A DNA stretch of 64,000 bases from the NCBI GenBank assembly GCA_028690665.1, contig JAQVAV010000017.1, positions 1-64,000 on the forward strand. The letters are read 5' to 3'. Shown here one piece after another: positions 2,167-42,983 of the stretch (position 1 is the first letter of the stretch; each line of letters starts with the position of its first letter). Both the position numbers and the translations under genes were made by a program. This stretch comes from Paludibacter sp. (GTDB lineage Bacteria > Bacteroidota > Bacteroidia > Bacteroidales > Paludibacteraceae). The notes beneath the pieces are model-generated. The model made no database searches. It saw only the letters and a program-made list of their open reading frames with translations, and had not been told where the DNA came from.

Positions 2167-4167
2167 TTACTGTCTTTTCAGCACCATCGCTGAACGGGCT
2201 GGTAAATAAAGCTTCAACCATTCCTTGCCAGTTGCATCTACCGGGGTTGGATTAGTTACATGAATAACGGAATCGTCGTTTAAACCATATCCGCCAAAAT
2301 CGACACTATCCGTATTCAAAACAACTTTATAAGTTCCTTTTCGGGTAAGTATTCCATAATTAGTAAATGACTTTGTTCCATTAAAATTAAATATAAAAAC
2401 AAAATCACCCCGTAAATATGCAATTACCTGATCGTCTTCTTTATCCCAAATATTCTCAACGAAAAGCAAATTGAATCCCGGCACAGAACGTATTAAAGCA
2501 ATCATTGCATTGTCGAATGCCCCAAGCGAACTGTATAAATATTTAGGATTATCCACTAAACTCCATTGACGACGAGCATATTTATAAGACCATCCGTTTC
2601 CTTCTCGGGGAAAATCAATCCATTCCGGATGGCCGAATTCATTCCCCATAAAGTTCAGATACCCCCCATTAATCGTCGTTGCTGTAATCAATCGGATCAT
2701 TTTATGTAAAGCGAGACCTCTGTCAATAAGTAACGTATTATCACCTTTTTGCATGTGCCAGTACATCTCGGCATCTATCAATCGGAAAATAATGGTTTTA
2801 TCCCCAACTAAAGCCTGATCGTGGCTTTCAGCATAACTGATGGTTTTTTCATCTGCACGCCTGTTTGTCACTTCCCAAAAAATATGACCTACTTTCCAAT
2901 CTTCATCTTTAACCTCTTTGATATATTTAATCCAAAAGTCTGGAATTCCCATAGCCATGCGATAATCAAACCCAATACCACCATCATCTACCTTTGCAGC
3001 TAAGCCAGGCATACCGCTTACTTCTTCAGCAATAGTAATAGCATTAGGATTTACCTGATGAATAGTTTTGTTTGCCAAAGTAAGATAACATATAGCATCT
3101 CCATCCTGATTCAGGTTATAATAAGAGTCATATCCATTAAAATCTTCACCCAGACCATGGCTGCGATAAAGCATAGATGTTACGCCATCAAACCTGAATC
3201 CATCGAATTTATACTCTTCAAGCCAAAATTTACAATTGGAAAGCAGAAAATGAATCACATTCGGCTTTGCATAGTCGAAACATAATGAATCCCATGCAGG
3301 ATGTTCGCGTCGCTCACCTCCATGAAAGTATTGATACGGGGTACCATCAAACCGTCCCAATCCTTCAACCTCATTTCGCACAGCATGTGAATGTACAATG
3401 TCCATAATAACAGCAATTCCCATGCTATGGGCATCATCAATCAGATGTTTCAGTTCATCCGGAGTTCCGAAACGCGATGATGCTGCAAAAAAGCTGGAAA
3501 CATGATACCCGAATGAGCCGTAATAAGGATGTTCCTGAATGGCCATAATCTGAATACAATTATATCCATCTTTGGAAATACGTGGTAAAATATTCGTTCG
3601 AAATTCTTCGTAAGTCGAAACTTTTTCTTCTTCCCCGGACATTCCGATATGACATTCATAAATAAGTAAGGGATTTGTTTCCGGTTTAAAATTTTTTATT
3701 CTGAAGTGGTATGGTTGAATCGGATTCCAAACCTGAGCACTAAAAATTTTAGTTTGCTCATCCTGAACAACCCGGTTAGCCCAGGCAGGTATACGTTCTC
3801 CTCCTCCTCCATCCCACTCAATCAGAAGTTTATACAATTGTGTGTGGGCCATAGCATAATCCGGCAAACGAATTTCCCAGATGCCATTTTGCATCTTCTT
3901 TAACTGATAATCGTTATGACGTTGCCAGTTATTAAAATCGCCAATTAAAAAAATGGCAGTTGCATTAGGAGCCCATTCTCTGAAAACCCAACCATCCGTT
4001 AATCGATGTAAACCAAAATACATATATCCGGTTGCAAAATCGGATAATGTTTGCGTTCCACCTGTGAGCTTTTGCTCAACCTGTAAAAAATAATCGTAAC
4101 GTCCGTAAATAGCATCAGCATAAGGAAGCAAATACGGATCTGACTTAACAATAGGCAGGATATTCAT
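2167..4167 (-). CDS. glgB: 1,4-alpha-glucan branching enzyme (GH13)
   Basis: The enzyme cuts alpha-1,4 chains and re-attaches the oligosaccharide in alpha-1,6 linkage during glycogen synthesis in the cytoplasm. An N-terminal CBM48-like domain (about residues 45-150, with GWVFREWAPNA) is followed by a GH13 barrel with region I DIVHSH, region II GFRFDGVTSM carrying the Asp nucleophile, region III IAEEVSG carrying the acid Glu, and region IV ESHDQALVGDKT. The C-terminal all-beta domain follows. The length of about 666 residues matches Bacteroidota branching enzymes. I chose the ATG at 4167 because the frame upstream only offers a TTG at 4185 and the purine-rich GAAGAAAAAAGAG sits just before this ATG. 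A -7 box lies at 4253-4246. Confidence 0.95.
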   Translation of the reverse strand: MNILPIVKSDPYLLPYADAIYGRYDYFLQVEQKLTGGTQTLSDFATGYMYFGLHRLTDGWVFREWAPNATAIFLIGDFNNWQRHNDYQLKKMQNGIWEIRLPDYAMAHTQLYKLLIEWDGGGGERIPAWANRVVQDEQTKIFSAQVWNPIQPYHFRIKNFKPETNPLLIYECHIGMSGEEEKVSTYEEFRTNILPRISKDGYNCIQIMAIQEHPYYGSFGYHVSSFFAASSRFGTPDELKHLIDDAHSMGIAVIMDIVHSHAVRNEVEGLGRFDGTPYQYFHGGERREHPAWDSLCFDYAKPNVIHFLLSNCKFWLEEYKFDGFRFDGVTSMLYRSHGLGEDFNGYDSYYNLNQDGDAICYLTLANKTIHQVNPNAITIAEEVSGMPGLAAKVDDGGIGFDYRMAMGIPDFWIKYIKEVKDEDWKVGHIFWEVTNRRADEKTISYAESHDQALVGDKTIIFRLIDAEMYWHMQKGDNTLLIDRGLALHKMIRLITATTINGGYLNFMGNEFGHPEWIDFPREGNGWSYKYARRQWSLVDNPKYLYSSLGAFDNAMIALIRSVPGFNLLFVENIWDKEDDQVIAYLRGDFVFIFNFNGTKSFTNYGILTRKGTYKVVLNTDSVDFGGYGLNDDSVIHVTNPTPVDATGKEWLKLYLPARSAMVLKRQ

Positions 4168-22085: not shown

Positions 22086-22886
22086 ATGAAGTTTCTTATT
22101 CGTTTGGACATCCAACCGCACAAGTTTGGTAATTTGCTCCCTTTAAATTACCAGTATGAACTTTCTTCTTTTATTTACCGAACATTGGCACAGTCGGACG
22201 AGCAGTATTCCGGGTGGTTGCACGAGAATGGTTATAAAGCCGACCGGAAGCAGTTCAGACTTTTTTCATTTTCCAACCTGATTATTCCTGAATTTAAAAT
22301 AACAGACGATCGTATCCGCATTTTATCAGCCAGATCGGGGCTTATTATTTCTTTTCTGCCCGAAAAGTCGACGGTGGAATTTGTGAATGGTATTTTCAGA
22401 AACCAGTCGTTTACTATAGGTGACCGCAAATCAAAAGTCGCTTTTTCTGTCAGTTCGATTGAACAACTCAGAGATCCCGATTTTTCGCAGCATGGAGAAT
22501 TCGTCACCCTGTCGCCGGTATGTATTATGCAAAAAAATGAGAGGCAGAAACATCCCCAATACCTTTCGCCGCAGGATGAGTTTAGCAATGCTTCGCTGTT
22601 TATGAACTTGTCGGATAAATACCGTGCATTTTATAATATCCCTTATGCCGGTGATGCTCATTTTGAACTGACAGTACGTAACCGGCCTCATTCGAAACTC
22701 ATTACCATAAAGCGCGATACGCCCCAGCAAACCTCGATTAAAGGATATAATTTTTCTTTTGGCATCAGTGCTTCTCCTGAACTGAAGTTTTTAATGTACC
22801 ATACCGGTTTGGGACAGAAAAACAGTATGGGCTTTGGCTGTGTACTGACAAAGGATCAGTATGAGGAAGTGAGGAACAAGTTATGA
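22086..22886 (+). CDS. cas6: CRISPR-associated endoribonuclease Cas6
   Basis: Cas6 cuts the pre-crRNA within each repeat and leaves an 8-nt 5' handle. The 266-residue protein shows two RAMP/ferredoxin-like halves. It starts KFLIRLDIQPHKFGNLLPLNYQYELSSFIYRTL, typical of Cas6, and ends with the glycine-rich loop GLGQKNSMGFGCV near residue 245. A His in the early part (e.g. the WLHENGY segment) could be catalytic. It is the first cas gene, behind its own promoter, and is separated from cas8 by two non-cas genes. Confidence 0.93.
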   Translation: MKFLIRLDIQPHKFGNLLPLNYQYELSSFIYRTLAQSDEQYSGWLHENGYKADRKQFRLFSFSNLIIPEFKITDDRIRILSARSGLIISFLPEKSTVEFVNGIFRNQSFTIGDRKSKVAFSVSSIEQLRDPDFSQHGEFVTLSPVCIMQKNERQKHPQYLSPQDEFSNASLFMNLSDKYRAFYNIPYAGDAHFELTVRNRPHSKLITIKRDTPQQTSIKGYNFSFGISASPELKFLMYHTGLGQKNSMGFGCVLTKDQYEEVRNKL

Positions 22887-22954: not shown

Positions 22955-23566
22955 ATGCAAAAGATCGAGAAATTGGAATACGGACAGTTTTACCACATCT
23001 ACAACCATGCGGTCGGAGGACGCGATTTGTTTCGTATACCCGATAATTACGAATATTTTCTGGGATTGTACGATAAATATATTTCATCGGTGGCCGATAC
23101 GTATGCATGGGTGCTAATGAAGAATCATTTTCATATATTGGTGAGGATAAACGATTTTATCGATATTACCCCAGACAGGGTTCAAAACCCTGTCTGGGGT
23201 AATAATAAAATCGGTACGCCTTCGCAACAATTTTCCAAACTGTTCAATTCATACGCACAGGCCTATAATAAATATTACGAAACCCGCGGTGCCCTTTTCG
23301 AACGGCCTTTTAAACGAAAATTAATTGACAATAAATATTATTTGAAACAAGTCATTCTTTACATTCATAATAATCCGGTACACCATGGTTTCTGTGAATA
23401 TCCGGATGAATATCCATGGAGCAGTTACCTGACCTGTGTATCGATAAAGCCAACCAAGTTGCAAAGAGAAAAAGTTGTTGGTTGGTTCGATGGTAATGCA
23501 AGCTTTAAGACGACACATAATGAGAAATTCAATATGAATGAAATGGACGACTGGCTGGGAATGTAA
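22955..23566 (+). mobile_element. REP-associated tyrosine transposase (RAYT, Y1_Tnp/IS200-like) inside the cas operon
   Basis: A 203-residue HUH single-strand transposase of the RAYT family, thought to mobilise REP palindromes. It shows the N-terminal YGQFYHIYNHAVGGRDLF motif, the HUH motif KNHFHILVRI near residue 52, and the catalytic Tyr region NSYAQAYNKYYETRGALFERPFK, then YIHNNPVHHG. Length is normal and the frame is intact. A REP-like palindrome (23166-23202) lies in frame inside the gene, in a loop-like insertion at about residues 71-83, and another lies 14 bp after the stop. It separates cas6 from the rest of the operon on the same strand. Confidence 0.9.
23166..23202. repeat. REP-like palindrome 1, inside the transposase coding region
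   Basis: Perfect 17-bp arms TTACCCCAGACAGGGTT (23166-23182) and their complement (23186-23202), 3-nt loop. It shares the core GACAGGGTTnnnAACCCTGTC with copies 2 and 3, and stays in frame within the transposase. Confidence 0.9.
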
Positions 23567-24603: not shown

Positions 24604-26022
<1,419 letters not shown>

Positions 26023-26034
26023 AAAATATTTAAA

Positions 26035-27114
26035 ATGAAAAAATTAAAAACCCAAGGATTTGTATTATTGGATGTTGATGCCGTTGCTCTCAACAATGCA
26101 GGGAAAAACACATCAAGTAACTTTGACAATGCCGTTGCGACGAAAAGGATTCGTAAAAACGGCCGCACCTATGTTTATGTTTCTGGTCAGGCATGGCGTT
26201 CGTGGTGGCGAGATTCATTACAAAAAAATTTGAATTGGGAATTATCTCCCATAACCCGTGATGCAAAGATTGCATTTACTGATGCCAATCCGTTAAAATA
26301 TGCTGACGATGATATTTTTGGCTATATGAAGGCTGCCAAAGATGTTGTACTCGATGAAGAAGGAAATCCTGTTTTAGACAAAAAGGGGAAAGAAAAAACG
26401 GAAAATGTAACGGTTACAAGAATTTCTCCTCTAAAAAATTCGGCTATTATTTCTGTGGCATCTGTAACTCCAGAGGAAAACTGGTCAAGTATGGCTCGTC
26501 AGGAAGGTGATTCTGTTCCATATGGTAAACATGAATATAGTGCCATTATGAAAGGAATGTTTAGTCTTGATTTAGCACAGGTTGGAACATTTTCGGATTA
26601 TAACAAAACCGGATATGTAAACTTATCGGATGTGCTTAAAAAGGAAGCGTTAGACAATGGGGCTTCAGAAATTGACGATGAATTTGTTCCTAATCATAAA
26701 CTTATAAGAATAAGTAAAGAAGCTCGCATACAAAGAGCTATTGACACAATAGAGGCTTTGAAAAACATTTCGGGCGGTGCGATGCAAACCAACAATATGG
26801 GCGATGTAACACCTAAATTTATTGTGCTGGCAACCACAACAACGGGAAACCATCCGTTTTCTCATATCGCTACAAAAACAGGAGCTTATGATGAATATGC
26901 CACTTTGGATATTGATGCTTTAAAAGAAGTGATTTCTGATTACAAAAATGATTTTGAAGGCAAAATATTTATCGGAAAACGTGCAGGATTTATGGACGAA
27001 AAAAATGATGCTTTGGCTGGGCTTGTTACTGAATTTTCAGATTTGATTGAGCTGACAACCATAAATAAAGCTATTGATAATTATTGCGAACAGATAAAAA
27101 ATCAAATGGATTAA
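26035..27114 (+). CDS. cas7: Type I-B Cascade backbone Cas7 (Cst2/DevR family)
   Basis: Cas7 forms the helical backbone of Cascade along the crRNA guide. The 359-residue protein begins with the RAMP strand LKTQGFVLLDVDAVALNNAGK and continues with TKRIRKNGRTYVYVSGQAWRSWWRD, typical of Cst2/DevR proteins. Further family signs are TRISPLKNSAIISVA and EYSAIMKGMFSLDLAQVGTFSDY. Length is normal. It starts 12 bp after cas8 and ends 2 bp before cas5, so the three Cascade genes are tightly coupled. Confidence 0.93.
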   Translation: MKKLKTQGFVLLDVDAVALNNAGKNTSSNFDNAVATKRIRKNGRTYVYVSGQAWRSWWRDSLQKNLNWELSPITRDAKIAFTDANPLKYADDDIFGYMKAAKDVVLDEEGNPVLDKKGKEKTENVTVTRISPLKNSAIISVASVTPEENWSSMARQEGDSVPYGKHEYSAIMKGMFSLDLAQVGTFSDYNKTGYVNLSDVLKKEALDNGASEIDDEFVPNHKLIRISKEARIQRAIDTIEALKNISGGAMQTNNMGDVTPKFIVLATTTTGNHPFSHIATKTGAYDEYATLDIDALKEVISDYKNDFEGKIFIGKRAGFMDEKNDALAGLVTEFSDLIELTTINKAIDNYCEQIKNQMD

Positions 27115-27116
27115 AT

Positions 27117-27800
27117 ATGAAAGTATACCGTATAAAATTATCATCGTGGACGGCAAGTTTCCGGTATCCGAATTTAATTTCCGGATTCCAGCCAACACTT
27201 GAGGTGCCGCCAGTAAGTACGGTATTGGGTTTAATAAATGCTGCCGCCGGACATTACGTTGAATATTCAGGATTAAACATTGGATACTATTTTGAATATG
27301 GGGCAAAAGCAACCGATTTGGAAACGATTTATCAGATTGAATTAAAAACGACTCAATCCGGTTCATATCCCTCTAATTCAACAAAATCTAATGTCATTAA
27401 CCGCGAATTTCTTTACGATTGTCAGCTTTATATTTATGTACAGGATGAAAAAACAAAAGAATATTTTCAGAAGCCATATTATCCGTTAGTTCTTGGCAGA
27501 AGCGGTGATTTAGTCACTGTTGATGCTATCGAAGAGATTGAATTAACTGAAAATAATTCTCCTGAAAATATAAAAGGTCAGGTGGTACCGTTTGCTAATC
27601 ATTTCCTTCCGGGAGAAATTCAGGCGTTACCTAAATATTTTACCAATACGATTCCCCGAAAAAATATTGGAACAGAACCTTTTTCCGTTATTTCTTACCT
27701 GTCAAAGAATATTGGCAGCGGCAACATTAAAGCTTATACCGATATAATTAATGAAGAGAAAATAGACATCTATTTTCATCAATTGAATTTTTCGAACTAA
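27117..27800 (+). CDS. cas5: Type I-B Cascade subunit Cas5 (Cas5t-like)
   Basis: Cas5 caps the crRNA 5' handle. The protein has 227 residues from the ATG at 27117, 2 bp after the cas7 stop; a longer frame from 27084 overlaps cas7 and lacks the conserved start. It opens with MKVYRIKLSSWTASFRYPNLISG and EVPPVSTVLGLINAAAG, a typical Cas5t/Cas5b N-terminus. PYYPLVLGRSGDLVTV is the conserved middle motif. A REP-like palindrome lies just past the stop. Confidence 0.92.
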   Translation: MKVYRIKLSSWTASFRYPNLISGFQPTLEVPPVSTVLGLINAAAGHYVEYSGLNIGYYFEYGAKATDLETIYQIELKTTQSGSYPSNSTKSNVINREFLYDCQLYIYVQDEKTKEYFQKPYYPLVLGRSGDLVTVDAIEEIELTENNSPENIKGQVVPFANHFLPGEIQALPKYFTNTIPRKNIGTEPFSVISYLSKNIGSGNIKAYTDIINEEKIDIYFHQLNFSN

Positions 27801-27854: not shown

Positions 27855-30101
27855 ATGGAACTATTAGCAAAATCAAATCCGCCTCAAACTTTAAAAGAGC
27901 ATATCGACGATGCTTTAAAGATTGAAGGACTTTTGAAAATCTCATTTCCCAATATCGAAAAAATAAGCGGCACTGATGGTTTTTGGGAGCTCTTAAAAGC
28001 CTGTGTTATTTTTCACGATTTAGGAAAATCACACAGAGAATTTCAGAACTTATTGCTTGACACAAAGAATGATTGGAAACATCAACGCCATGAATTGTTT
28101 TCTTTGCCTTTTGTAGAAGGATTAAATTACTCAGGAAAAGTATTTATTTATTATGTTGTTGCAGGTCATCACAAAGACTTTGAAACGCTTATTCGCAATC
28201 TTGATAGTTATGGTTCTAACGACGATAATTTTGGACTTGATTTAGGCGGGACAGAAGAAATATGTACTTTTGAGGAAGAGTTTGAAAATAATATTCCTGT
28301 CGAAAAAGTTTTGGAACTATTAAAATCTTACGATTTTGAATTGAAGGCTCCGACTATAAACAATCCCAAAAGACAGCTACAACAATTTATTAAAAAACAT
28401 TTTGAGGATAAAAGTAAACTAATTCAACAATTATTGCTGGCTGGTGCATTTAAGCAATGCGACCATTTAGCTTCGTCAGGAATTGAAAGCATCTTTAATT
28501 TAAATCCCAATGATTTTCAATATTTATATGAATCCGGCTATGAATTTTATCAGCATCAAAAAGATGCCTGCTCGCTGATTGGAAATACCATTTTAACAGC
28601 GCCGACAGGTTCCGGAAAAACGGAAACATCGTTGTTGTGGCTTCAAAATCAAATGAAGATAGAGGGAAACGGACGGGTATTTTATATTCTTCCGTTCACG
28701 GCTTCAATCAATGCAATGTATGAACGGCTTGAAAAACAAATTCCTAATAAAGTGGGTTTGCTTCACGGAAAGTTATCTGCCTTTATCGAGGCTAAATTTG
28801 AAGATGACGATTTGGTGGATGATAAACGCAAACAGGAAATCAAGGAACAGTATAAAACACTTGTTACGCCATTAAAAATTGTAACCCCATTTCAATTGTT
28901 GAAAAACATTTTTGCCTTAAAAGGTTTTGAAAAAGGACTTTTTGAATGGGCTGGCGGATATTTTATTTTTGATGAAATTCACGCTTACAATCCCAGAGTA
29001 TTTGCCCAAATAATTAGCCTTCTAAAATTCTCGACAAAATATCTATGTGTAAAAGTCTTTATAATGACAGCAACATTGCCTTCTTATTTAAGAAAGGAAT
29101 TAGAAAAAGCTATTGGGCATTATACTTCAATTAGTGCAAGCACTGAGCTTTATAATCAATTTGACAGACACAGAATTATTGTCAGGGAAGGGTTACTAAG
29201 TGATAATCTGGATTTGGTTCAGGAATATTTGGATAAAGGCAAAAAGGTATTGGCCGTTTGCAATACGGTAAAACAAGCTCAGACTGTTTTTACAACATTA
29301 AATGCTAATAATAAAATTTTGTTGCATAGTTCATTCAATGCAAATGATCGAAATCAAAAGGAAAAACGACTTTTTGAAAAAGATGTCAAATTATTAGTCG
29401 GAACTCAGGCGATTGAAGTCAGTTTGGATATTGACTATGATGTTATTTTTACGGAACCTGCACCACTCGATGCTTTAATTCAACGTTTTGGACGGGTAAA
29501 CCGGAAACGGGAAAAAGGAATATGTGACTGTTTTGTTTTTGAAGGAAGAAATGATTCTGACAAATTTATTTATCAAAATGAAGAAATTGTTAATCGTACC
29601 CTCAAAATTTTGCAAGAAAAAGAAGCCATAAATTCAGGTATTATAAAGGAAGCCGAATTACAGAAAATGATTGATGTCGTTTACCCAGATTGGGACAAAG
29701 AAGACAAAGAAGAATTCGACAAAATTACATCATTGCTTGATAATTTTATTGAAAAAGAGATGAAGCCATTCATATACAACGACAAGCAAGAAGAAGATTT
29801 CTATGAACAGTTTGACGGTGTAAAAGTGCTGCCTTCAAAATTCCTTGAAGAATATCAGACACTTTTGGAACAGAACAAATTTATTAAAGCCGAAAATCTG
29901 AAAGTACAAATTTCTTCAAAACGATTTAACGCTTTAATTCACAATGATGGAATTGATGTAACAAGGGCAGCATTCGAAAGCATAAAAACTCATAAAATAC
30001 TTGAGCAAAAAGTTTTTGTAATCAATAAAAAATACGACAGTGAAATAGGATTACAACTTGATGTTGACGAAAGCAGTAGCAATAATGATTGTTTTCTATA
30101 A
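27855..30101 (+). CDS. cas3: CRISPR-associated HD nuclease-helicase Cas3
   Basis: Cas3 unwinds and shreds target DNA after Cascade binding. The 748-residue protein fuses an N-terminal HD domain (HD pair in VIFHDLGKSHREFQ at residues 54-55, later HQRHE and AGHHKDFE) to a superfamily 2 helicase. Helicase motifs are LTAPTGSGKTETSLLW (about residue 247), FDEIHAY (about 373), MTATLP (about 404), GTQAIEVSLDIDYD and QRFGRVNRKRE (about 545). Length is typical of type I-B Cas3, and all key residues are present, so it should be active. Confidence 0.95.
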   Translation: MELLAKSNPPQTLKEHIDDALKIEGLLKISFPNIEKISGTDGFWELLKACVIFHDLGKSHREFQNLLLDTKNDWKHQRHELFSLPFVEGLNYSGKVFIYYVVAGHHKDFETLIRNLDSYGSNDDNFGLDLGGTEEICTFEEEFENNIPVEKVLELLKSYDFELKAPTINNPKRQLQQFIKKHFEDKSKLIQQLLLAGAFKQCDHLASSGIESIFNLNPNDFQYLYESGYEFYQHQKDACSLIGNTILTAPTGSGKTETSLLWLQNQMKIEGNGRVFYILPFTASINAMYERLEKQIPNKVGLLHGKLSAFIEAKFEDDDLVDDKRKQEIKEQYKTLVTPLKIVTPFQLLKNIFALKGFEKGLFEWAGGYFIFDEIHAYNPRVFAQIISLLKFSTKYLCVKVFIMTATLPSYLRKELEKAIGHYTSISASTELYNQFDRHRIIVREGLLSDNLDLVQEYLDKGKKVLAVCNTVKQAQTVFTTLNANNKILLHSSFNANDRNQKEKRLFEKDVKLLVGTQAIEVSLDIDYDVIFTEPAPLDALIQRFGRVNRKREKGICDCFVFEGRNDSDKFIYQNEEIVNRTLKILQEKEAINSGIIKEAELQKMIDVVYPDWDKEDKEEFDKITSLLDNFIEKEMKPFIYNDKQEEDFYEQFDGVKVLPSKFLEEYQTLLEQNKFIKAENLKVQISSKRFNALIHNDGIDVTRAAFESIKTHKILEQKVFVINKKYDSEIGLQLDVDESSSNNDCFL

Positions 30102-30129: not shown

Positions 30130-30771
30130 ATGATAAACAGCAATGAAATAGCCGAAGCGATACAAGGTTTGTCGCAGGCATTGAGTAAACAGGATGCCGA
30201 TTTATGGCACTCGGTAGGTTTTTGGGGAGTAATCATTTCGTTGGTGCTTGGAGTAGTAACTTTAGCGGTCAAGCAAATAAGCGCACGCCGGAAGTTTAAA
30301 TATGATGTTACGATTCAATGTATAGAAAACTTTCGGAAAGTTTTTGAAGAAGAAAATGCTTTGAACGAAAAAAATGTTTCGGCTTATTTGGGAGTTATTG
30401 ACGAACAATTGTTTTATTTCCGGAAACATTGGATTTATGACGAGTTTGTCGAGGAATGGTTGCGCAATATGGTTTATACGCTTCCGGTATTTTATCATGA
30501 TATGGAAAAAGATGATTATGTTGTAATAAACGGAGAATTACTTTCGAAGTTGGGCAGTTTTTTCGACACAGAGGAACATTATCGTTATATTTTCCGCTAT
30601 AGAAATATACGTAAAACCATTTTAGTGGATAAAAAATATGAGTTGGAACTCATCGTATCTCCTAACTTTACGAAAAGTTTCAAGAATATGGCTCACAACG
30701 ATGCAAGTATCAACCGCATTATAAACGCCATGAAAAATAATCTTATAAAGCAAAATAAAAAAAGTCTGTAA
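30130..30771 (+). CDS. Uncharacterised single-pass membrane protein between cas3 and cas4
   Basis: A 213-residue protein with a short amphipathic N-terminus (residues 1-25), one clear membrane helix (about 27-49, SVGFWGVIISLVLGVVTLAV), then a polar domain of about 160 residues rich in aromatics (FRKHWIYDEFVEEWLRNMVYTLPVFYHDME). No catalytic motif is apparent and I do not recognise the family with certainty; the layout is similar to DUF4760-type proteins. It starts 28 bp after cas3 on the same strand. Its position suggests either a cargo gene or a membrane-linked accessory factor. Confidence 0.7.
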   Translation: MINSNEIAEAIQGLSQALSKQDADLWHSVGFWGVIISLVLGVVTLAVKQISARRKFKYDVTIQCIENFRKVFEEENALNEKNVSAYLGVIDEQLFYFRKHWIYDEFVEEWLRNMVYTLPVFYHDMEKDDYVVINGELLSKLGSFFDTEEHYRYIFRYRNIRKTILVDKKYELELIVSPNFTKSFKNMAHNDASINRIINAMKNNLIKQNKKSL

Positions 30772-31441: not shown

Positions 31442-31942
31442 ATGATCACCGGAACACATTTTAATTATTATCAGGTTTGCAAGCGCAAGCTTTGGCTGTT
31501 TGCCAACGGCATTAATATGGAGCACACCTCGGATTTGGTTTACGAGGGTAAAATGATTCACGAGGAATCGTATCCGCAGCGTCCGGAGCGTTACGAAGAG
31601 CTGGAGATCGACGGCATCAAAATAGACTTTTACGACGCACGAAACAAAGTGGTGCACGAAATAAAAAAGTCGAATAAGGTGGAAGAGGCGCATCGCTGGC
31701 AAGTGAAGTATTATATTTATATGCTGGAACGTAACGGCGTGGAGGGTGTGACCGGCCTGTTGGAATACCCCACCCTGCGCCAAACGGAGAAAGTGGAACT
31801 TACAGACGACGACCGGAAACGGATTGTGGAAACGGGAAAAGCGATTGAGGCTTTGATACAGCAGGATGAATGTCCGCCGGTGATAAATTCTAAAATTTGT
31901 AAGCAATGCAGCTATTATGAGTTTTGCTATGTCAAGGATTGA
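31442..31942 (+). CDS. cas4: CRISPR adaptation exonuclease Cas4
   Basis: Cas4 trims prespacers and helps choose PAM-proximal ends during adaptation. At 166 residues it is a compact RecB-family nuclease with a [4Fe-4S] cluster: one Cys at residue 13 (YQVCKRKLWLF) and three at 153, 156 and 162 (CKQCSYYEFC). The nuclease motifs KIDFYD, HEIKKSNK and QVKYYIYML carry the Asp, Glu-x-Lys and Gln-x-x-x-Tyr residues. The gene is GC-richer than the cas8-cas3 block and is flanked by inverted octamer repeats; its last codons lie within the downstream run. Confidence 0.95.
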   Translation: MITGTHFNYYQVCKRKLWLFANGINMEHTSDLVYEGKMIHEESYPQRPERYEELEIDGIKIDFYDARNKVVHEIKKSNKVEEAHRWQVKYYIYMLERNGVEGVTGLLEYPTLRQTEKVELTDDDRKRIVETGKAIEALIQQDECPPVINSKICKQCSYYEFCYVKD

Positions 31943-32191: not shown

Positions 32192-33208
32192 ATGAAAAAG
32201 ACTTATTATTTATTTAATCCGGGAACTTTGCAGCGCAAGGATAACACGCTGAAGTTTACACCTGTGGAAGAGGACGGCAATGGCGTTGAGCGTCCGGGTC
32301 AGCCGCGGTATTTGCCGGTGGAGGACATTGCGGAGTTTTATACTTTCGGGTCGCTTACGGCCAACAGCGCGTTGTATAATTTTCTGGGACAAAATGATAT
32401 TGCAGTTCATTTTTTCGATTACTACGAAAATTACACGGGCTCGTTCATGCCCAAAGATGGGCTGCTGTCGGGACGGATGTTGCTGGCTCAGACACTCCAT
32501 TATCAGCAGAAACAAAAGCGTATGGCGATTGCCCGGAAGTTTATCGAAGGGGCTGCTTTTAATATGCAGAAAAATCTGCGGTATTATGATAAACGGGGTA
32601 AGGAACTGGCGGACGTTATCGGAAAAATAGACCAGTATGCGGTGCTGATTCCGGAAACGAAGGCTGTGGATGAGTTGATGGGGATCGAGGGAAATATCCG
32701 GCAGACATATTACGAGGGTTTTGATATTATTCTGAATGATTTCGATATGGGAATCCGTACCAAACAGCCTCCACAAAACGAAGTAAATGCGCTGATTTCG
32801 TTCGGGAATATGATGTGTTACACGCAATGCTTGCGGGCTATTCATCAAACTCAGCTGAATCCGACGATCAGTTATTTACATACGCCGGGAGAAAGAAGGT
32901 ATTCGCTGTCGTTGGACGTGTCGGAGATATTTAAACCGCTACTGGTTGACCGTGTTATTTTTAAGGTTTTGAATAAGCGGGAGATTCAGGAGAAACATTT
33001 TGACAAAAAGTTGAATAAATGTGTGCTGAATCAAAATGGTAAAAAGATATTTGTAAAGGCCTTTGAAGACAGACTGAATGAAACGATTCAACACCGGTCG
33101 CTGAAACGGAATGTGAGTTACCGGCATTTGATAAAACTGGAATGCTACAAACTGAGTAAACACTTGCTGGGCATGGAAGAATATAAGCCGTTTAAAATGT
33201 GGTGGTGA
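32192..33208 (+). CDS. cas1: CRISPR integrase Cas1 (type I-B)
   Basis: Cas1 is the metal-dependent integrase that, with Cas2, inserts new spacers at the leader end. The 338-residue protein has the N-terminal beta domain ([39 protein letters not shown]) and the helical catalytic domain with the Glu in [15 protein letters not shown], the His in [20 protein letters not shown] and the acidic residues that follow. [10 protein letters not shown] at the C-terminus is typical of type I-B Cas1. It overlaps the next gene by about 10 bp if that gene uses its GTG start. Confidence 0.96.
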
Positions 33209-33570
33209 AAACAAGGATTGAATATCGTGAACAAATGAACGTTCGATTAAAAAAATTTGCTTTGAGAGTTATTAAACTTTTTCAGTCGTTACCGAAAACT
33301 GACGAAGCCAGAATAATTGGAAAACAATTGCTACGCTCCGGCACTTCTGTTGCAGCAAATTACAGGGCAGCTTGTCGTGCCGGTTCAGGCAATGAATTTT
33401 ACAGTAAAATATCAATAGTTGTTGAGGAAGCAGATGAAAGCCTATTTTGGTTCGAACTTTTGACTGAAGCTGAAATAATCTCAGTGGAACGCATGAAAGA
33501 TTTAATGCAAGAGGCAGAAGAAATAGTCAAAATTATGTCAACAGCCAGAAAAAATGCTCAGCCCAAATAA
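33199..33570 (+). CDS. Four-helix-bundle protein (TIGR02436/S23 family) between cas1 and cas2
   Basis: A 123-residue all-helical protein of the S23/IVS-like four-helix-bundle family, related in fold to the Avd accessory protein of diversity-generating retroelements. The family core is intact: [41 protein letters not shown], then [21 protein letters not shown] keep the GTG start at 33199, which overlaps cas1, because the [11 protein letters not shown] residues resemble the usual family N-terminus; the ATG at 33235 is the alternative. Function is unknown. Its position splits the usual cas1-cas2 pair. Confidence 0.88.
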
Positions 33571-33617: not shown

Positions 33618-33881
33618 ATGTATGTAATTCTTGTATATGATTGTGGCGAAAAGCGAGTCGGAAAGATGTTGAAACTCTGCCGGCAATATTTGAACTGGAT
33701 TCAGAACTCGGTTTTCGAAGGAGAAATTTCGGAAGTTAAGTTGAAAGAACTAACTTTGAAAGCCGAGAAAATTATGGATTTAGAGGAAGACAGCCTGATC
33801 ATTTTTTCCGGGCGGTCGGAAAAGTGGCTCGAAAAGCAAATTATTGGAAAAGAGCGCAGTAGTATTGATAATTTTATATAG
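33618..33881 (+). CDS. cas2: CRISPR-associated protein Cas2
   Basis: Cas2 is the structural partner of Cas1 in the integration complex. The 87-residue protein has the ferredoxin-like fold start MYVILVYDCGEKR with Asp8, followed by GKMLKLCRQYLNWIQNSVFEGEISE and the DSLIIFSGRS strand. Length is normal. It is the last cas gene before the leader and array. The start at 33618 follows a run of CAATCCTT octamers rather than a Shine-Dalgarno sequence. Confidence 0.95.
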   Translation: MYVILVYDCGEKRVGKMLKLCRQYLNWIQNSVFEGEISEVKLKELTLKAEKIMDLEEDSLIIFSGRSEKWLEKQIIGKERSSIDNFI

Positions 33882-34092
33882 CAGCTTGTCGGTATAGCTG
33901 AAAACAATATGATGCAATTGAATAATAGCATCAAAAGATCTTTGACATACTGAAATACAACAAGATAAACTGGTTGTCGATGTGCAGGGATTTTCATACT
34001 TTTGCACATCGACAACTTTTACAACAAGAAACAGGCATCTTCTAAAAATTATTGAGCTGAAAATCAGCTTTTTTTGTCGTCGATCGCGACGG
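33882..34092 (+). promoter_or_regulatory. CRISPR leader with promoter, inverted repeat and terminator-like hairpin
   Basis: The AT-rich leader between cas2 and the first repeat. A promoter is visible: GTTG at 33973-33976, 20 bp spacer, TACTTTTG at 33997-34004. Both boxes lie in or at the edge of a perfect 14-bp inverted repeat (33973-33986 with 34003-34016). Downstream, AGCTGA (34055-34060) pairs with TCAGCT (34064-34069) and is followed by six T, a terminator-like hairpin. A third hairpin (34076-34082 with 34087-34093) reaches the first base of repeat 1. Confidence 0.75.
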
Positions 34093-37000
34093 CTCTTAAT
34101 CGCACCAACGTGGAATTGAAAGATTTTAACGTACAAGAAGCTTATTTATCTAACTCTACTCTTAATCGCACCAACGTGGAATTGAAAGAAACATATAAAA
34201 GGCTGATTGAAATTGAAACAAATACTCTTAATCGCACCAACGTGGAATTGAAAGTCGAGTAACCGCAAATAAAATTCTTTTGCAATCGGTCTCTTAATCG
34301 CACCAACGTGGAATTGAAAGAATTGAAAAGTGCGTCAGGAAAAGAGCTTGCAAACTCTTAATCGCACCAACGTGGAATTGAAAGTGATTTCAATGCTTTG
34401 CACAAATGTGCATATTTACTCTTAATCGCACCAACGTGGAATTGAAAGATTGAAATAGTCGATTACAAAAGCCAAATTGATTCTCTCTTAATCGCACCAA
34501 CGTGGAATTGAAAGAACGTCGTGATGATGGATGTTGCTATCGACAACATGCTCTTAATCGCACCAACGTGGAATTGAAAGTTGGTTTCAATGAATGTTCG
34601 GACAACCGGATAGTCACTCTTAATCGCACCAACGTGGAATTGAAAGACTTATACCAGAGTTTAAAAAAATGAATGCCGACCACTCTTAATCGCACCAACG
34701 TGGAATTGAAAGAACATGAAAGCCGTCACTATTCACAAGTCTGAAACTCTTAATCGCACCAACGTGGAATTGAAAGTGTTCAATTGGAGATTGGCATGCT
34801 GATTTTGATACTCTTAATCGCACCAACGTGGAATTGAAAGAAGGTAATCAATCTACACAAGAATCAACCTTCAAAAACTCTTAATCGCACCAACGTGGAA
34901 TTGAAAGGAAGATAAAAGGAGAATATGTAAAATAGCTATCGAAACTCTTAATCGCACCAACGTGGAATTGAAAGTTCATTTCCTTGACTATAGTCTATTC
35001 GCGGCGTAACTCTTAATCGCACCAACGTGGAATTGAAAGGCGTGGATAAACTATATGACAAATTACAACAAACTCTCTTAATCGCACCAACGTGGAATTG
35101 AAAGTTATCACATATAAATTCTGCTGTTTCTGTATCGTACTCTTAATCGCACCAACGTGGAATTGAAAGTTGTATTACGGATTCGCTTCCATTTCTTAGG
35201 AGTTGTCTCTTAATCGCACCAACGTGGAATTGAAAGATATTTGGCATCTTTATTTGCTTGTTCTGTTTTAATACTCTTAATCGCACCAACGTGGAATTGA
35301 AAGTAATGATAATGCTAATCTTTAGTGCTGTTACTAATCTCTTAATCGCACCAACGTGGAATTGAAAGCTGCATTGGCAAATGGGATTCCGTAATAAAGT
35401 TCCTCTTAATCGCACCAACGTGGAATTGAAAGATAGTTTTCGTCAATTTTACAATCTGTTCCGGATTCTCTTAATCGCACCAACGTGGAATTGAAAGAAA
35501 GTACATCTCCTTATATCATAGATGCGGGAACATCTCTTAATCGCACCAACGTGGAATTGAAAGATCAATGACGGTGCTCCTCTAATATATACAGAGAGCT
35601 CTTAATCGCACCAACGTGGAATTGAAAGACCAAACTACCAAATCACATGGACTTTCGTTAGCTCTCTTAATCGCACCAACGTGGAATTGAAAGTACTTAT
35701 CAACAGCAGTAACAGCTCCAGGAACTTCTTCCTCTTAATCGCACCAACGTGGAATTGAAAGGCTATTTCTTCTACTTTTCTAACACTAACACAGTCTCTC
35801 TTAATCGCACCAACGTGGAATTGAAAGTCTGTAATATCTTGTCCTGAGTCTGATTCATCCGGCTCTTAATCGCACCAACGTGGAATTGAAAGATGACAAT
35901 TTACCATCCGGATCGCGAACTATTCCTTCTCTTAATCGCACCAACGTGGAATTGAAAGCGAGTTGCATTTTGACTTCCAGTGATGATTACACCACTCTTA
36001 ATCGCACCAACGTGGAATTGAAAGCTCACGACCGAGTGTATGGTGATTTGGCAATAGCGTGCTCTTAATCGCACCAACGTGGAATTGAAAGAAGAAAAAC
36101 TCAATTTCAAAACTGCCGGTGAAAAATCTCTTAATCGCACCAACGTGGAATTGAAAGATAGCCATTTCAGCGTTGACATTTTTTATTTCTTTCCTCTTAA
36201 TCGCACCAACGTGGAATTGAAAGGATTATACGGTTGGGGACAAAGAAGAAATGAGTCGTTCTCTTAATCGCACCAACGTGGAATTGAAAGGAGGTAGCTA
36301 CGACGATTGGATGGAAGCTGTATATACTCTTAATCGCACCAACGTGGAATTGAAAGATTTTAAAAATGATGTGCGTAAAACGAAGTTGCGCCTCTTAATC
36401 GCACCAACGTGGAATTGAAAGGAGGAACAATCACACTTGACCCGAAAGCATTTATACTCTTAATCGCACCAACGTGGAATTGAAAGTCGCAACGCACGAA
36501 GCTTTGTATGGTTGCTGCTAACTCTTAATCGCACCAACGTGGAATTGAAAGTAACTTTATGTACACCGACATAGTGGGGGATTTTGAGCTCTTAATCGCA
36601 CCAACGTGGAATTGAAAGAGATTAAAATCGTATCCAAAACAACCCAAAGCAAGCTCTTAATCGCACCAACGTGGAATTGAAAGGTGAGAAAAAGAAAGAG
36701 AGTATTAAAAAGAGTGTTCTCTTAATCGCACCAACGTGGAATTGAAAGCGCCCAAGAGCTGCAAAGAAAGAAAACGGAACATCACTCTTAATCGCACCAA
36801 CGTGGAATTGAAAGGAAAATATTTCAGTGCATCATTAATGTGTATCAACCCTCTTAATCGCACCAACGTGGAATTGAAAGTCAAAAATAAAGTTCTCCAG
36901 TTCGTTGTATTTTTTCTCTTAATCGCACCAACGTGGAATTGAAAGATAACTATCAATTGAAATTACAAAATATTATGATCTCTTAATCGCACCAACGTGG

Positions 37001-40000
37001 AATTGAAAGACGGTAGGCCCATTATTCGGGAGCATGAAGGTACAACTCTTAATCGCACCAACGTGGAATTGAAAGGACAATAATGCCGCAATGGCCGCCT
37101 CTGCAATGAACTCTTAATCGCACCAACGTGGAATTGAAAGAATACAGCAGTTTGAGAGCCTGTTAGTTGTTTGTTCTCTTAATCGCACCAACGTGGAATT
37201 GAAAGAAAACAACAGCCAGTCTTGCTGTTTGGGAAAATTACTCTTAATCGCACCAACGTGGAATTGAAAGCAATTTCAGAGTTCGAGAGCGGAAAACATG
37301 CTCTCCTCTTAATCGCACCAACGTGGAATTGAAAGGGTGATACCACATCCGCCATTGGCGAATTCAGCACACTCTTAATCGCACCAACGTGGAATTGAAA
37401 GCAGTTAACACCAACTACCCGTCAATTGCCGCAGGTCTCTTAATCGCACCAACGTGGAATTGAAATGGACGTAGGGTCATGTGTTGCAATGAATTCTGAA
37501 GCTCTTAATCGCACCAACGTGGAATTGAAATGCCAGTGCTGCAACTCCGGCTGTTATGGTTGCAACTCTTAATCGCACCAACGTGGAATTGAAATGAACA
37601 ATTAGAAAAAGCATAACTTCCAATACTTGTCTCTTAATCGCACCAACGTGGAATTGAAATAAAGGACCGCGAGGAGAAACTCGCCGAAACAAGACTCTCT
37701 TAATCGCACCAACGTGGAATTGAAATAACAAATGGACATAAACGAAAGGATTTTAAGGTTTACTCTTAATCGCACCAACGTGGAATTGAAATGGCATAGC
37801 ATTTATTGATTACATCGAATCTGATGAACTCTTAATCGCACCAACGTGGAATTGAAATACTGGTGTTGCTATTGATTCTTTGGCTATTTCTCTCTCTTAA
37901 TCGCACCAACGTGGAATTGAAATTACGTTACTATTCAAGATTTGGTCGACGTAGACACTCTTAATCGCACCAACGTGGAATTGAAATCGATTATTGGCAC
38001 TTCGGCCGAAAATTCACAAATGCTCTTAATCGCACCAACGTGGAATTGAAATTGATACAATTAATCTTGCGACGATTAAAAAATCATTCTCTTAATCGCA
38101 CCAACGTGGAATTGAAATATAATGTTTTATTGTCTGAGATAAACACTTTGAATCTCTTAATCGCACCAACGTGGAATTGAAATTACTTATTTAGTGCGTT
38201 ATTTAAAGCAACATATCCCTCTTAATCGCACCAACGTGGAATTGAAATTGCTCACAAGCTGGCTGAATCGGTATGCGTTGGTCTCTTAATCGCACCAACG
38301 TGGAATTGAAATTGTCATATTTCTGTAACGTTATAAATGATTTGATGCTCTTAATCGCACCAACGTGGAATTGAAATACTTTTTGAAGCAATCTGTTTTG
38401 CATAATCTTCAACTCTTAATCGCACCAACGTGGAATTGAAATGAGGATTATATAGCGGCTCAGGTAGCTGCAAATTCTCTTAATCGCACCAACGTGGAAT
38501 TGAAATAATGGGTAAAATGTTACTCCGAAAAAAGAACCTCTGCTCTTAATCGCACCAACGTGGAATTGAAATGATTATAAACTGGTTTCTCCGGGAACGT
38601 ACATTTGTCTCTTAATCGCACCAACGTGGAATTGAAATAACAATTAAATCGCACGGACTTTCATTGGCTATTTCCCTCTTAATCGCACCAACGTGGAATT
38701 GAAATGAAATCTGAACCGGTGAAAATAATTTATCGGTACGACTCTTAATCGCACCAACGTGGAATTGAAATCCCCAACAATCCAGTTCAATAGCAATGCT
38801 GTGTTTATCTCTTAATCGCACCAACGTGGAATTGAAATAACCTCATATACGGACACACTGCTGGTGGTTCAGCCTCTTAATCGCACCAACGTGGAATTGA
38901 AATCGCTGTATCGGCAGCCTGAACGGCCCAGTTATGCGCTCTCTTAATCGCACCAACGTGGAATTGAAATTGCGGCAAATGTGCAGCTTGTATGAGTAAT
39001 AAAAGCTCTTAATCGCACCAACGTGGAATTGAAATAGTATCTCGGCGGTGGTAAAAGTACATTAGTAATATCCTCTTAATCGCACCAACGTGGAATTGAA
39101 ATTAAATATCGGCGTTATTCACGTCAAGAAGGTCCTGAACTCTTAATCGCACCAACGTGGAATTGAAATACTTTAAAGCATCTGTTTCATAAATTTTTGT
39201 GTTACTCTTAATCGCACCAACGTGGAATTGAAATTGTATAAAAGTGACTTGAAAAAATCTTCAAAGCACTCTTAATCGCACCAACGTGGAATTGAAATGG
39301 TGATATTATCATTAAACCGATGACCGTAAATACGCTCTTAATCGCACCAACGTGGAATTGAAATTACCAATAACTTAAGGAGTTCAATTGGGTATGTAAT
39401 TCTCTTAATCGCACCAACGTGGAATTGAAATTTTATGTATGAAACCACTGTTTTCAGATGCTGATCTCTTAATCGCACCAACGTGGAATTGAAATAACTA
39501 TCCTGTTTGGAACAAAGAAGAAGTGGGTAGTTCTCTTAATCGCACCAACGTGGAATTGAAATTACTCACCTACACCGAAAAAGCGTATATTTTTAACACT
39601 CTTAATCGCACCAACGTGGAATTGAAATATACTGCTATATCTCCTATGAATAACGGTTCTACTTCCTCTTAATCGCACCAACGTGGAATTGAAATTGGTT
39701 CAGGGTTATTCTATTGTAAAGGCCTGGAATGCTCTTAATCGCACCAACGTGGAATTGAAATATCGAACATAAAATCGAAAGGATAGTTACAAACAAACTC
39801 TTAATCGCACCAACGTGGAATTGAAATGAAGTTTTTCTGTCAGGATCATAAGGGCCAAATTCAGCTCTTAATCGCACCAACGTGGAATTGAAATTCTTGG
39901 CGAACAGGAAGTATATCTCAAAGAGCTATCTCTTAATCGCACCAACGTGGAATTGAAATGTCAAATGCAGCTCGGAAGTAGAACCACTATCCACTCTTAA

Positions 40001-42983
40001 TCGCACCAACGTGGAATTGAAATTGCGACGCGACAGAGGGTGCGAGCAGATTTTTAACACTCTTAATCGCACCAACGTGGAATTGAAATTTGAATCATCT
40101 TTCTATAACGTTTGTGCAGAACCTCCTCTTAATCGCACCAACGTGGAATTGAAATTTGATTACGGTGAAAATGGAGGTGGACATCTCACCTCTTAATCGC
40201 ACCAACGTGGAATTGAAATGAGATAATAGCCGCTCAGCAAAATCTCGAAAGCTGGCTCTTAATCGCACCAACGTGGAATTGAAATTTGGGCGAAGATCCA
40301 TTACAATTTCCTGACTTGTTTCTCTTAATCGCACCAACGTGGAATTGAAATTGGAGATATGAGTGTACCGGCATCTATTACGTACGCTCTTAATCGCACC
40401 AACGTGGAATTGAAATGGATTTAACAATGTTATCCTGAGCCGTATTCGGATCTCTTAATCGCACCAACGTGGAATTGAAATATGGCACTTTGTTTGCCGA
40501 TTTAAGCGGTGTTTCAGCTCTTAATCGCACCAACGTGGAATTGAAATTTTGTTGAGGTGATCGCGGAGCAAGAGACTAAGATCTCTTAATCGCACCAACG
40601 TGGAATTGAAATAAGTCATTCCATGATATTTTCTTGTCACTAACTCCAACTCTTAATCGCACCAACGTGGAATTGAAATATACTTATAATTCATACTTAT
40701 CTGATGATTTTTTTTCTCTTAATCGCACCAACGTGGAATTGAAATAATGAAGCTCAAATAAAGTCTTTAGAAAAGTTAGTCTCTTAATCGCACCAACGTG
40801 GAATTGAAATAAATGAAACTTATCAGGCCCGAAATTTTAGCAGACACTCTTAATCGCACCAACGTGGAATTGAAATGATCAGGCTGCAACAAATGCTTTA
40901 ATGCAACGCATTGCTCTTAATCGCACCAACGTGGAATTGAAATAAGCAACAGAACTTTGGTTTAATGTCTGACTTTCAACTCTTAATCGCACCAACGTGG
41001 AATTGAAATGGGTGAAACAATACTATTTGACATCGAAGGAGATTCACTCTTAATCGCACCAACGTGGAATTGAAATATGCGATTGAAAGAAAATATAAAA
41101 TAACTATGTCTGACTCTTAATCGCACCAACGTGGAATTGAAATGAAACACTATTGTGTTTTGGTCATCTGATATTAACTCTTAATCGCACCAACGTGGAA
41201 TTGAAATCGACTTTTTGAAACTTTCCAGTGCTGAATACCATTCTCTTAATCGCACCAACGTGGAATTGAAATAAGCACAATCTGAAAGTTACGGAGATGG
41301 TACGGTTGCTCTTAATCGCACCAACGTGGAATTGAAATGACAAAAAGATTGCCGTTTTCGATGATGAAAGTTACCTCTTAATCGCACCAACGTGGAATTG
41401 AAATTGAGAAGAAAGAAAAGGCAGCTTATAACACTGCACTACTCTTAATCGCACCAACGTGGAATTGAAATTGAATTCCGGATCGCCTGAGTTAAGCGTT
41501 ACGGAAAGCTCTTAATCGCACCAACGTGGAATTGAAATACGCAAACCTAGACTTTGATGTGAACGCTCAACTTATCTCTTAATCGCACCAACGTGGAATT
41601 GAAATTGTGTAATGACAAATCCTCGAAGGTTACTGCTCGGGAACTCTTAATCGCACCAACGTGGAATTGAAATAGCTCAGCTTGTTCTATTTCCTGTGAT
41701 CTGAACTCTCTTAATCGCACCAACGTGGAATTGAAATTTCGGAGGATAATTTATCTGCGGCAGCTCTCGTTTTGTCTCTTAATCGCACCAACGTGGAATT
41801 GAAATCGGGATAATAGGTTGTTGGTTGCTCCGATAAAATTCTCTTAATCGCACCAACGTGGAATTGAAATTTCCTTCCGCTTTGTTGGCATAGTAATTCT
41901 TATACTCTTAATCGCACCAACGTGGAATTGAAATTGGATAGGTATTTATTGTTTGGGTAATCATACATTTCTCTTAATCGCACCAACGTGGAATTGAATT
42001 TTTTTTACTATGTTACTAACTAAAATCATAATTACTCTTAATCGCACCAACGTGGAATTGAAATATTGTAATTGCGCCCACGACGCCCCGCTATTCTCAC
42101 TCTTAATCGCACCAACGTGGAATTGAAATCCGGGACGAACCCCGGACGTATTGCCGTCCAATTCCTCTTAATCGCACCAACGTGGAATTGAAATTTCATT
42201 CAGTGTACGCCTCGATATGACCCCTTTGCTCTTAATCGCACCAACGTGGAATTGAAATCAATTAGATGAAATAGGGTTTCAAGAGTTAATCACCTCTTAA
42301 TCGCACCAACGTGGAATTGAAATTAAATTATTTCTGATGTATCTTTAAAGCTAATATGCTCTTAATCGCACCAACGTGGAATTGAAATTGTTTTATCAAT
42401 GTTAGCACTTTGCTGTATTAACACTCTTAATCGCACCAACGTGGAATTGAAATTCCTTATCGGAGAACTTAATAACATCTTCAGAGTTGAACTCTTAATC
42501 GCACCAACGTGGAATTGAAATAAAGAACAACGCATCTTCTTCAGCTTGACGAAAATCTCTTAATCGCACCAACGTGGAATTGAAATTGGATAGGTATTTA
42601 TTGTTTGGGTAATCATACATTTCTCTTAATCGCACCAACGTGGAATTGAAATGAGCTGAAAAAAGAAGAAGCGAAAGCAGATTTAATTCTCTTAATCGCA
42701 CCAACGTGGAATTGAAATCTCGACACATGAGGGTACGAAGTGATTTTGTTAACTCTTAATCGCACCAACGTGGAATTGAAATATATATTGTCAGGAGGTT
42801 CTGCCTGGTGACGTGTTTACTCTTAATCGCACCAACGTGGAATTGAAATACAAAAGTTTCAAATCTTCCAACTAAAAAACCTTAATTCTCTTAATCGCAC
42901 CAACGTGGAATTGAAATGATTACGGGACATGAGAGCGAAGGTAGGCTCACACTCTCTTAATCGCACCAACGTGGAATTGAAAT
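34093..42983 (+). CRISPR. Type I-B CRISPR array, 136 repeats by manual count
   Basis: The repeat is 30 bp; it begins CTCTTAATCG and ends GAATTGAAAG or GAATTGAAAT. Spacers are mostly 34-38 bp (135 in total). The leader side is at 34093, next to cas2, so newest spacers should be there. Repeats 1-51 (to 37401) end in G and repeats 52-136 (from 37437) end in T. Repeat 121 (41971-42000) has one extra change near its end. Spacers 120 and 130 are identical. After the last repeat, CTCCTTAAT near 43013 may be the start of a decayed terminal repeat. The expected 8-nt crRNA handle is AUUGAAAG or AUUGAAAU. Confidence 0.98.

Follow-up and report, generated by a model that had tools for sequence, protein, structure and literature searches.

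How does the last base of a CRISPR repeat come to change once, and only once, along an array of well over a hundred repeats? The question is raised by an array in a 4.05-Mb Paludibacter genome (29 contigs), lying in the 64,000-nucleotide stretch of DNA that was analysed here, which we refer to as the window. A 29-nt core, CTCTTAATCGCACCAACGTGGAATTGAAA, occurs in 136 copies on the + strand of the window and in none on the minus strand, with up to six mismatches allowed, and it is identical in 135 of the 136 repeats. The base directly 3' of this core is G in the first 51 copies (34093 to 37401), which end GAAAG, and T in the following 85 (37437 to 42983), so perfect a 51/85 sorting having a chance probability of about 10^-37.6. 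A first-pass annotation of this DNA had described a single boundary at 37372-37466 (+ strand), comprising repeat 51 (G), spacer 51 and repeat 52 (T), and tabulation of all 136 last bases bears this out exactly. It had also named repeat 121 as the exception to the rule; this repeat (at 41971) is indeed a variant, but it still ends in T and its altered base (A to T) is the one before the last. Repeat 121 comes right after spacer 120 (41935-41970), the first of two identical 36-nt spacers; the second, spacer 130 (42587-42622), lies ten units away among different neighbours, and either two acquisitions or relocation by recombination could account for the pair.

The array is attached to a type I-B (I-B1) cas locus, all genes of which are on the + strand. 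Its effector set consists of cas8b1/cst1 (24616..26022; TIGR01908), cas7 (26035..27114; TIGR02585), cas5 (27084..27800; TIGR01895) and cas3 (27855..30101; HD domain and helicase), and is accompanied by cas6 (22086..22886; TIGR01877) and the adaptation genes cas4 (31442..31942; PF01930), cas1 of the I-B type (32192..33208; TIGR03641, 470.7 bits) and cas2 (33618..33881; PF09827), all of which score above curated cut-offs. Other genes are interspersed with these. Between cas6 and cas8b1, a gene at 22955-23566 encodes a protein that matches REP-associated tyrosine transposases below threshold (53 bits against a cut-off of 80), and between cas3 and cas4 there are a gene without a family match (30130-30771) and a gene for a PRiA4_ORF3 protein (PF07929, 30804-31382). 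A gene for a four-helix bundle/23S rRNA intervening-sequence protein (33199..33570, + strand; PF05635) overlaps the end of cas1 and parts it from cas2. Since the array begins 888 bases after cas1 in the window, compared with about 480 bases in many relatives, this PF05635 gene may be an insertion. The same genome also holds another CRISPR-like array (contig 4, near 195783-196562) with an unrelated repeat, beginning GTTGTGATTTGCTTTCAATAATTGG, which adjoins a distant Cas1 relative (24% identity) and is perhaps part of a type II system.

The direction in which the array has grown can be read from its surroundings. We took the stretch from cas2 to the first repeat (33882..34092, + strand) as the leader; it ends in cgg, as do 12 of the 14 relatives' leaders printed in our comparison, and it contains an inverted repeat (agctga/tcagct) that is also found in several relatives. 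Because cas1 and cas2 precede the array and this leader end is common to 12 of 14 relatives, the 51 repeats ending GAAAG (34093..37401, + strand) form the leader-proximal, newer block, and the 85 repeats ending in T (37437..42983, + strand) the leader-distal, older one. A number of relatives carry degenerate repeats at the far end of their arrays, as expected of old ends.

The ancestral state of the last base was sought in the arrays of relatives; in the species collection the nearest Cas1 relatives are labelled Paludibacter. We kept 80 of 367 loci encoding a Cas1 relative and added 35 further stretches from genomes of the order, an array being entered when it had at least four regular copies of one exact 16-base anchor ending TTGAA, TTGAAA or ATAGAAA. 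After removal of seven duplicate arrays and one antisense reading, and with terminal repeats of two or more mismatches trimmed before counting, the compared set held 102 arrays, including that of the window, and 5,566 repeats. The majority last base is T in 64 of these arrays and C in 38, and never G or A; over all repeats T occurs 3320 times, C 2179, G 58 and A 9. As many as 51 of the 58 G-ending repeats are those of the window, leaving 7 among the 5,430 other repeats. The closest repeat in the set (array L313), which has one mismatch at another base, ends in T in 97 of 97 copies. Given these majorities and the repeat of L313, T is, on sequence comparison, the ancestral last base and G a derived and rare one; the derived base thus runs contiguously from the leader, with the ancestral base distal to it. 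Most arrays (72 of 102) are wholly uniform at this base, and in the other 30 the deviation is mostly limited to a single repeat or a handful, frequently at the terminal position. A symmetry between the first and last repeat bases is not general among the compared arrays. A search for sister strains with the repeat found none: of 48 genomes in the genus, the window's own is the sole one to have it within three mismatches, and an exact 26-nt core found no match in the species collection, which may omit that genome.

These observations are best explained, with high probability in our judgement, by one change from T to G in the leader-proximal repeat that was copied into all later repeats. New spacers would enter beside the leader, at 34092, and the leader-side repeat would be duplicated each time. 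After or during the entry of spacer 51 the last base of that repeat would have changed from T to G, and later acquisitions would have copied the G, leaving 51 G repeats ahead of 85 T repeats; the last base would thus be read from the host repeat and not from the target. The one clean boundary, with no mixing on either side, and comparable block switches in relatives support a single inherited change. Both the origin that the first-pass annotation had suggested for the switch, in which one leader-proximal mutation passes to later repeats, and its reading of the boundary as a time mark in the array are in keeping with the leader orientation, the ancestral T and the block switches of relatives. 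This is the ordinary mode of array growth, and the array illustrates a known process clearly, accompanied by one small new pattern.

That small pattern concerns the site of the change. Counting as a block any run in which at least two repeats carry a variant base, we found 12 inherited blocks in the 102 arrays, of which six are at the last base and six are spread across all other positions; under equal rates over 29 positions, and with independence assumed, this has a probability of about 1.3e-6. The six last-base blocks are those of the window, L303 (T24/C16), L045 (T47/C29), L072 (T47/C5/T1), L042 (T101/G3) and L099 (C59/T2/C1), and the two rows from L290 represent one locus. Three rows from L043 were left out of the 12, being out of register (their repeat ends differ in length); in this array (MKRK01000188.1, 2804-3336) the eight leader-side repeats end GAAG and the older ones GAAAC, so that two bases have been exchanged for one where repeat meets spacer, and the exchange has been inherited. 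Single variant repeats, too, are most frequent at the last base (15, two of them out-of-register readings of L043, against 6 at the next position), and among 27 pairs of repeats separated by a single difference it is the differing base in 8, places -2 to -10 being nearly invariant. Taken together, the blocks and the one-base pairs indicate that the last base is labile over the shorter and the longer time scale alike; relaxed constraint may be the reason. The 8-nt crRNA 5' handle, derived from the repeat, is predicted to be AUUGAAAN, and the comparison suggests that, within this handle, no base but the last is clearly labile in this I-B family.

We compared 5,487 spacers, from the window and its relatives, with viral and prophage loci that had been fetched, leaving out eight loci that were arrays or duplicates (one phage record remained in the set twice, as L152 and L164). 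With up to seven mismatches, 37 spacers found matches compared with 1 reversed spacer, and with up to eight, 55 compared with 13; twelve of the phage hits were inspected. When the whole array was searched against 300 genomes of the family, repeats of other arrays dominated the result and two candidates per genome were scored, so that targets are undercounted; a second draw of genomes from the order gave nearly the same matches again. Over the 55 spacers, the target flank has C at -3 with 63% and at -2 with 61% of the weight, and at -1 has A (43%), G (31%), T (18%) and C (8%). The PAM is CCN, or better CCD, a 5' PAM of the known I-B kind (CCN/YYD).

This PAM is seen in both blocks of the window's array. 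Matches with up to eight mismatches were obtained for 7 of the 51 spacers in the G block and for 10 of the 84 in the T block (those at eight mismatches, s40, s83, s89 and s110, being weak on their own), and s49 and s51 were added by further searches. CCN is directly adjacent in most targets of six of the nine G-block spacers (s14, s15, s23, s33, s45 and s49) and of five of the ten T-block spacers (s83, s110, s123, s125 and s133). It is absent from this place in most targets of s34, s40 and s51 in the G block and of s54, s87, s89, s94 and s119 in the T block, and the PAM is thus not seen in every case; for s119, CC is shifted outward by one base in 35 of 36 targets, and CC is present in 3 of 10 targets of s87 and 1 of 9 of s54. 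The last PAM base is most often A in each of the six CCN-bearing G-block spacers, and is A, G, T or, in a few cases, C in those of the T block. Spacer 49 (37271..37305, + strand), whose repeat ends in G, matches two IMG/VR contigs, which may be one phage, at 35 of 35 positions, with CCA directly upstream. Both contigs carry the site a second time, at 97% identity, and the one of these second copies that was inspected is also preceded by CCA. The exact match lies at 3092 in both contigs (L318/L319), and a third, related contig (L316, at 1610 in minus strand count) has CTA and three mismatches, a possible escape variant from spacer 49. The last repeat base is therefore independent of the target, as judged from protospacers that are mostly inexact and one, that of s49, that is exact. 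One spacer from each block, s33 (36224-36260) and s83 (39496-39532), matches the same place in the major capsid gene of microviruses, with six to nine mismatches, in different viruses and with CCA upstream; a sequence-pattern search for the s33 target gave no match. For s51 one target was found, with two mismatches; it lies between two minus-strand reading frames, and a search with the 5' core of s51 found none. The flank of this target, CCTGA, is an exact fit to neither a point mutation nor a cut one base short. No target was found for the boundary spacers of L072 (47 and 52), and searches with the whole arrays of L072 and L045 each yielded a single weak match to a phage.

Several other origins for the switch have to be weighed against a single inherited change. 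The first-pass annotation had offered one of them, in which the PAM of the prespacer supplies the final base of the repeat and the choice of PAM changed; for this array the change would be from NNT to NNG. There is a precedent in the type I-E system of E. coli, where repeat and PAM agree in their last base (Swarts et al., 2012; PMC3338789), but the targets of the window do not behave in this way: the G-block spacers with adjacent CCN are preceded most commonly by A, the exact match of s49 has CCA where CCG would be expected, T-block targets vary among all four bases, and the last base is uniform in 72 of 102 arrays although targets vary there. The same argument has been made for Sulfolobus systems with a CCN PAM (PMC3468723), and we consider a PAM-derived base scarcely credible here. 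It is also very improbable that G was selected, whether for acquisition or for self/non-self discrimination, and the earlier suggestion that the change may affect the latter is not supported. G persisted while about 50 more spacers were acquired, and elsewhere it is very seldom found at this position (7 of 5,430 other repeats), which could be taken to favour selection. However, the flank in the array is AAG or AAT and that of a target CCN; the invariant PAM positions are the outer two, at which both blocks of the array have AA, and AA against CC would separate self from target in either block, while both T and G occur at the third, free PAM position of targets. In keeping with this, the I-B1 system of Thermotoga maritima uses YYD, within which both T and G fall at the third place, and rejects AAC (PMC13199841), and the I-A Cascade of T. 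tenax cut substrates with CCT or CCA but not a substrate bearing the tag flank (PMC4005679). Because a CCN PAM would put the last repeat base opposite this free place, the change from T to G was most likely neutral.

Two further explanations place the cause at the junction itself. Two arrays, or the arrays of two strains, could have been joined at a repeat near 37.4 kb by recombination or misassembly, which 136 near-identical repeats would permit and which would leave the same pattern. Against this, as far as misassembly can be assessed from array structure only, the genome contains, within three mismatches, no copies of the core beyond the array's own 136 and no second array with this repeat; the units at the junction are regular, spacers 51 and 52 both being 35 nt, with no leader-like stretch between the repeat blocks; and spacer length, first base and G+C are alike in the two blocks (p = 0.59, 0.47 and 0.65). 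That s33 and s83 target the same place in the microvirus capsid gene, albeit inexactly, speaks in the same direction, and an array ending in G would still need its own mutation; we find a join improbable. The other explanation follows from the fact that the last base switches more than other positions, so that something beyond ordinary point mutation may act there. In this account the spacer-side cut made by Cas1-Cas2 would at times fall short by one base, which would make the last base a hot spot of inherited switches in Bacteroidales I-B arrays, and the prespacer would have supplied the last base of repeat 51, a captured viral G that was then copied. The last base holds half of the inherited blocks while being one of about 29 positions, the change from GAAAC to GAAG in L043 is at this very junction, and the nearest s51 target has CCT displaced upstream with a G next to it. 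Yet the last base is also the commonest difference between repeats one base apart, so that relaxed constraint may suffice; the s51 target has two mismatches, with two bases, not one, between CCT and the spacer; s34, s54, s87 and s94 also lack adjacent CC in most targets; and A, which often begins a spacer, is the new base in none of the six blocks at the last position. We consider such imprecise integration unlikely, both for the window and as a general cause of the hot spot, although if it were true a single viral base would have become a permanent part of all later repeats. The inherited change in the leader-proximal repeat thus stays our preferred explanation.

That a variant of the leader-side repeat passes to all later repeats is known (PMC4869251, citing Yosef et al., 2012), and the array of the window would have arisen by the same copying; it differs from the inherited variants described there in that one base, the very last of the repeat, divides the 136 repeats cleanly in two, with a rare G allele. 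The type I-B system of Bacteroides fragilis has the same type of repeat, the printed repeat, turned round, ending GGAATTGAAAT, and its reported flank has G at places 2 and 3, which, in the other orientation, agrees with CCN; no last-base switch is noted in the portions of that account available (PMC9367070). The last repeat base of E. coli I-E also varies, but there it follows the PAM of the target and is not propagated, the reverse of the window on both counts (PMC3338789). Among eleven I-B PAMs that have been reported, CCN and CCA are included, as is TTTA for a Petrimonas cluster (PMC8482600), so that the PAM is not uniform across Bacteroidales I-B systems. The crRNA tags of T. tenax I-A (AUUGAAAG; PMC4005679) have exactly the sequence predicted for the G-block handle, and loci C, D and E of S. 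solfataricus use CCN (PMC3468723); both of these are archaeal I-A systems, for which no within-array switch is described in the parts of these accounts available. In the literature searched, with most subscription journals outside it, we found no description of a last-base hot spot in I-B arrays and nothing direct on such last-base switches.

The array of the window is therefore a long one with a single dated event, in which spacers acquired before and after the switch can be separated without recourse to spacer order, and the same mark should make recombination or misassembly easier to recognise in metagenomes and sister strains. Beyond this array, inherited switches in this I-B family seem, from our survey, to fall frequently on the last repeat base, and a G at this base seems to have been compatible with about 50 further acquisitions. 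Such a hot spot bears on the precision with which the spacer side of the repeat is cut.
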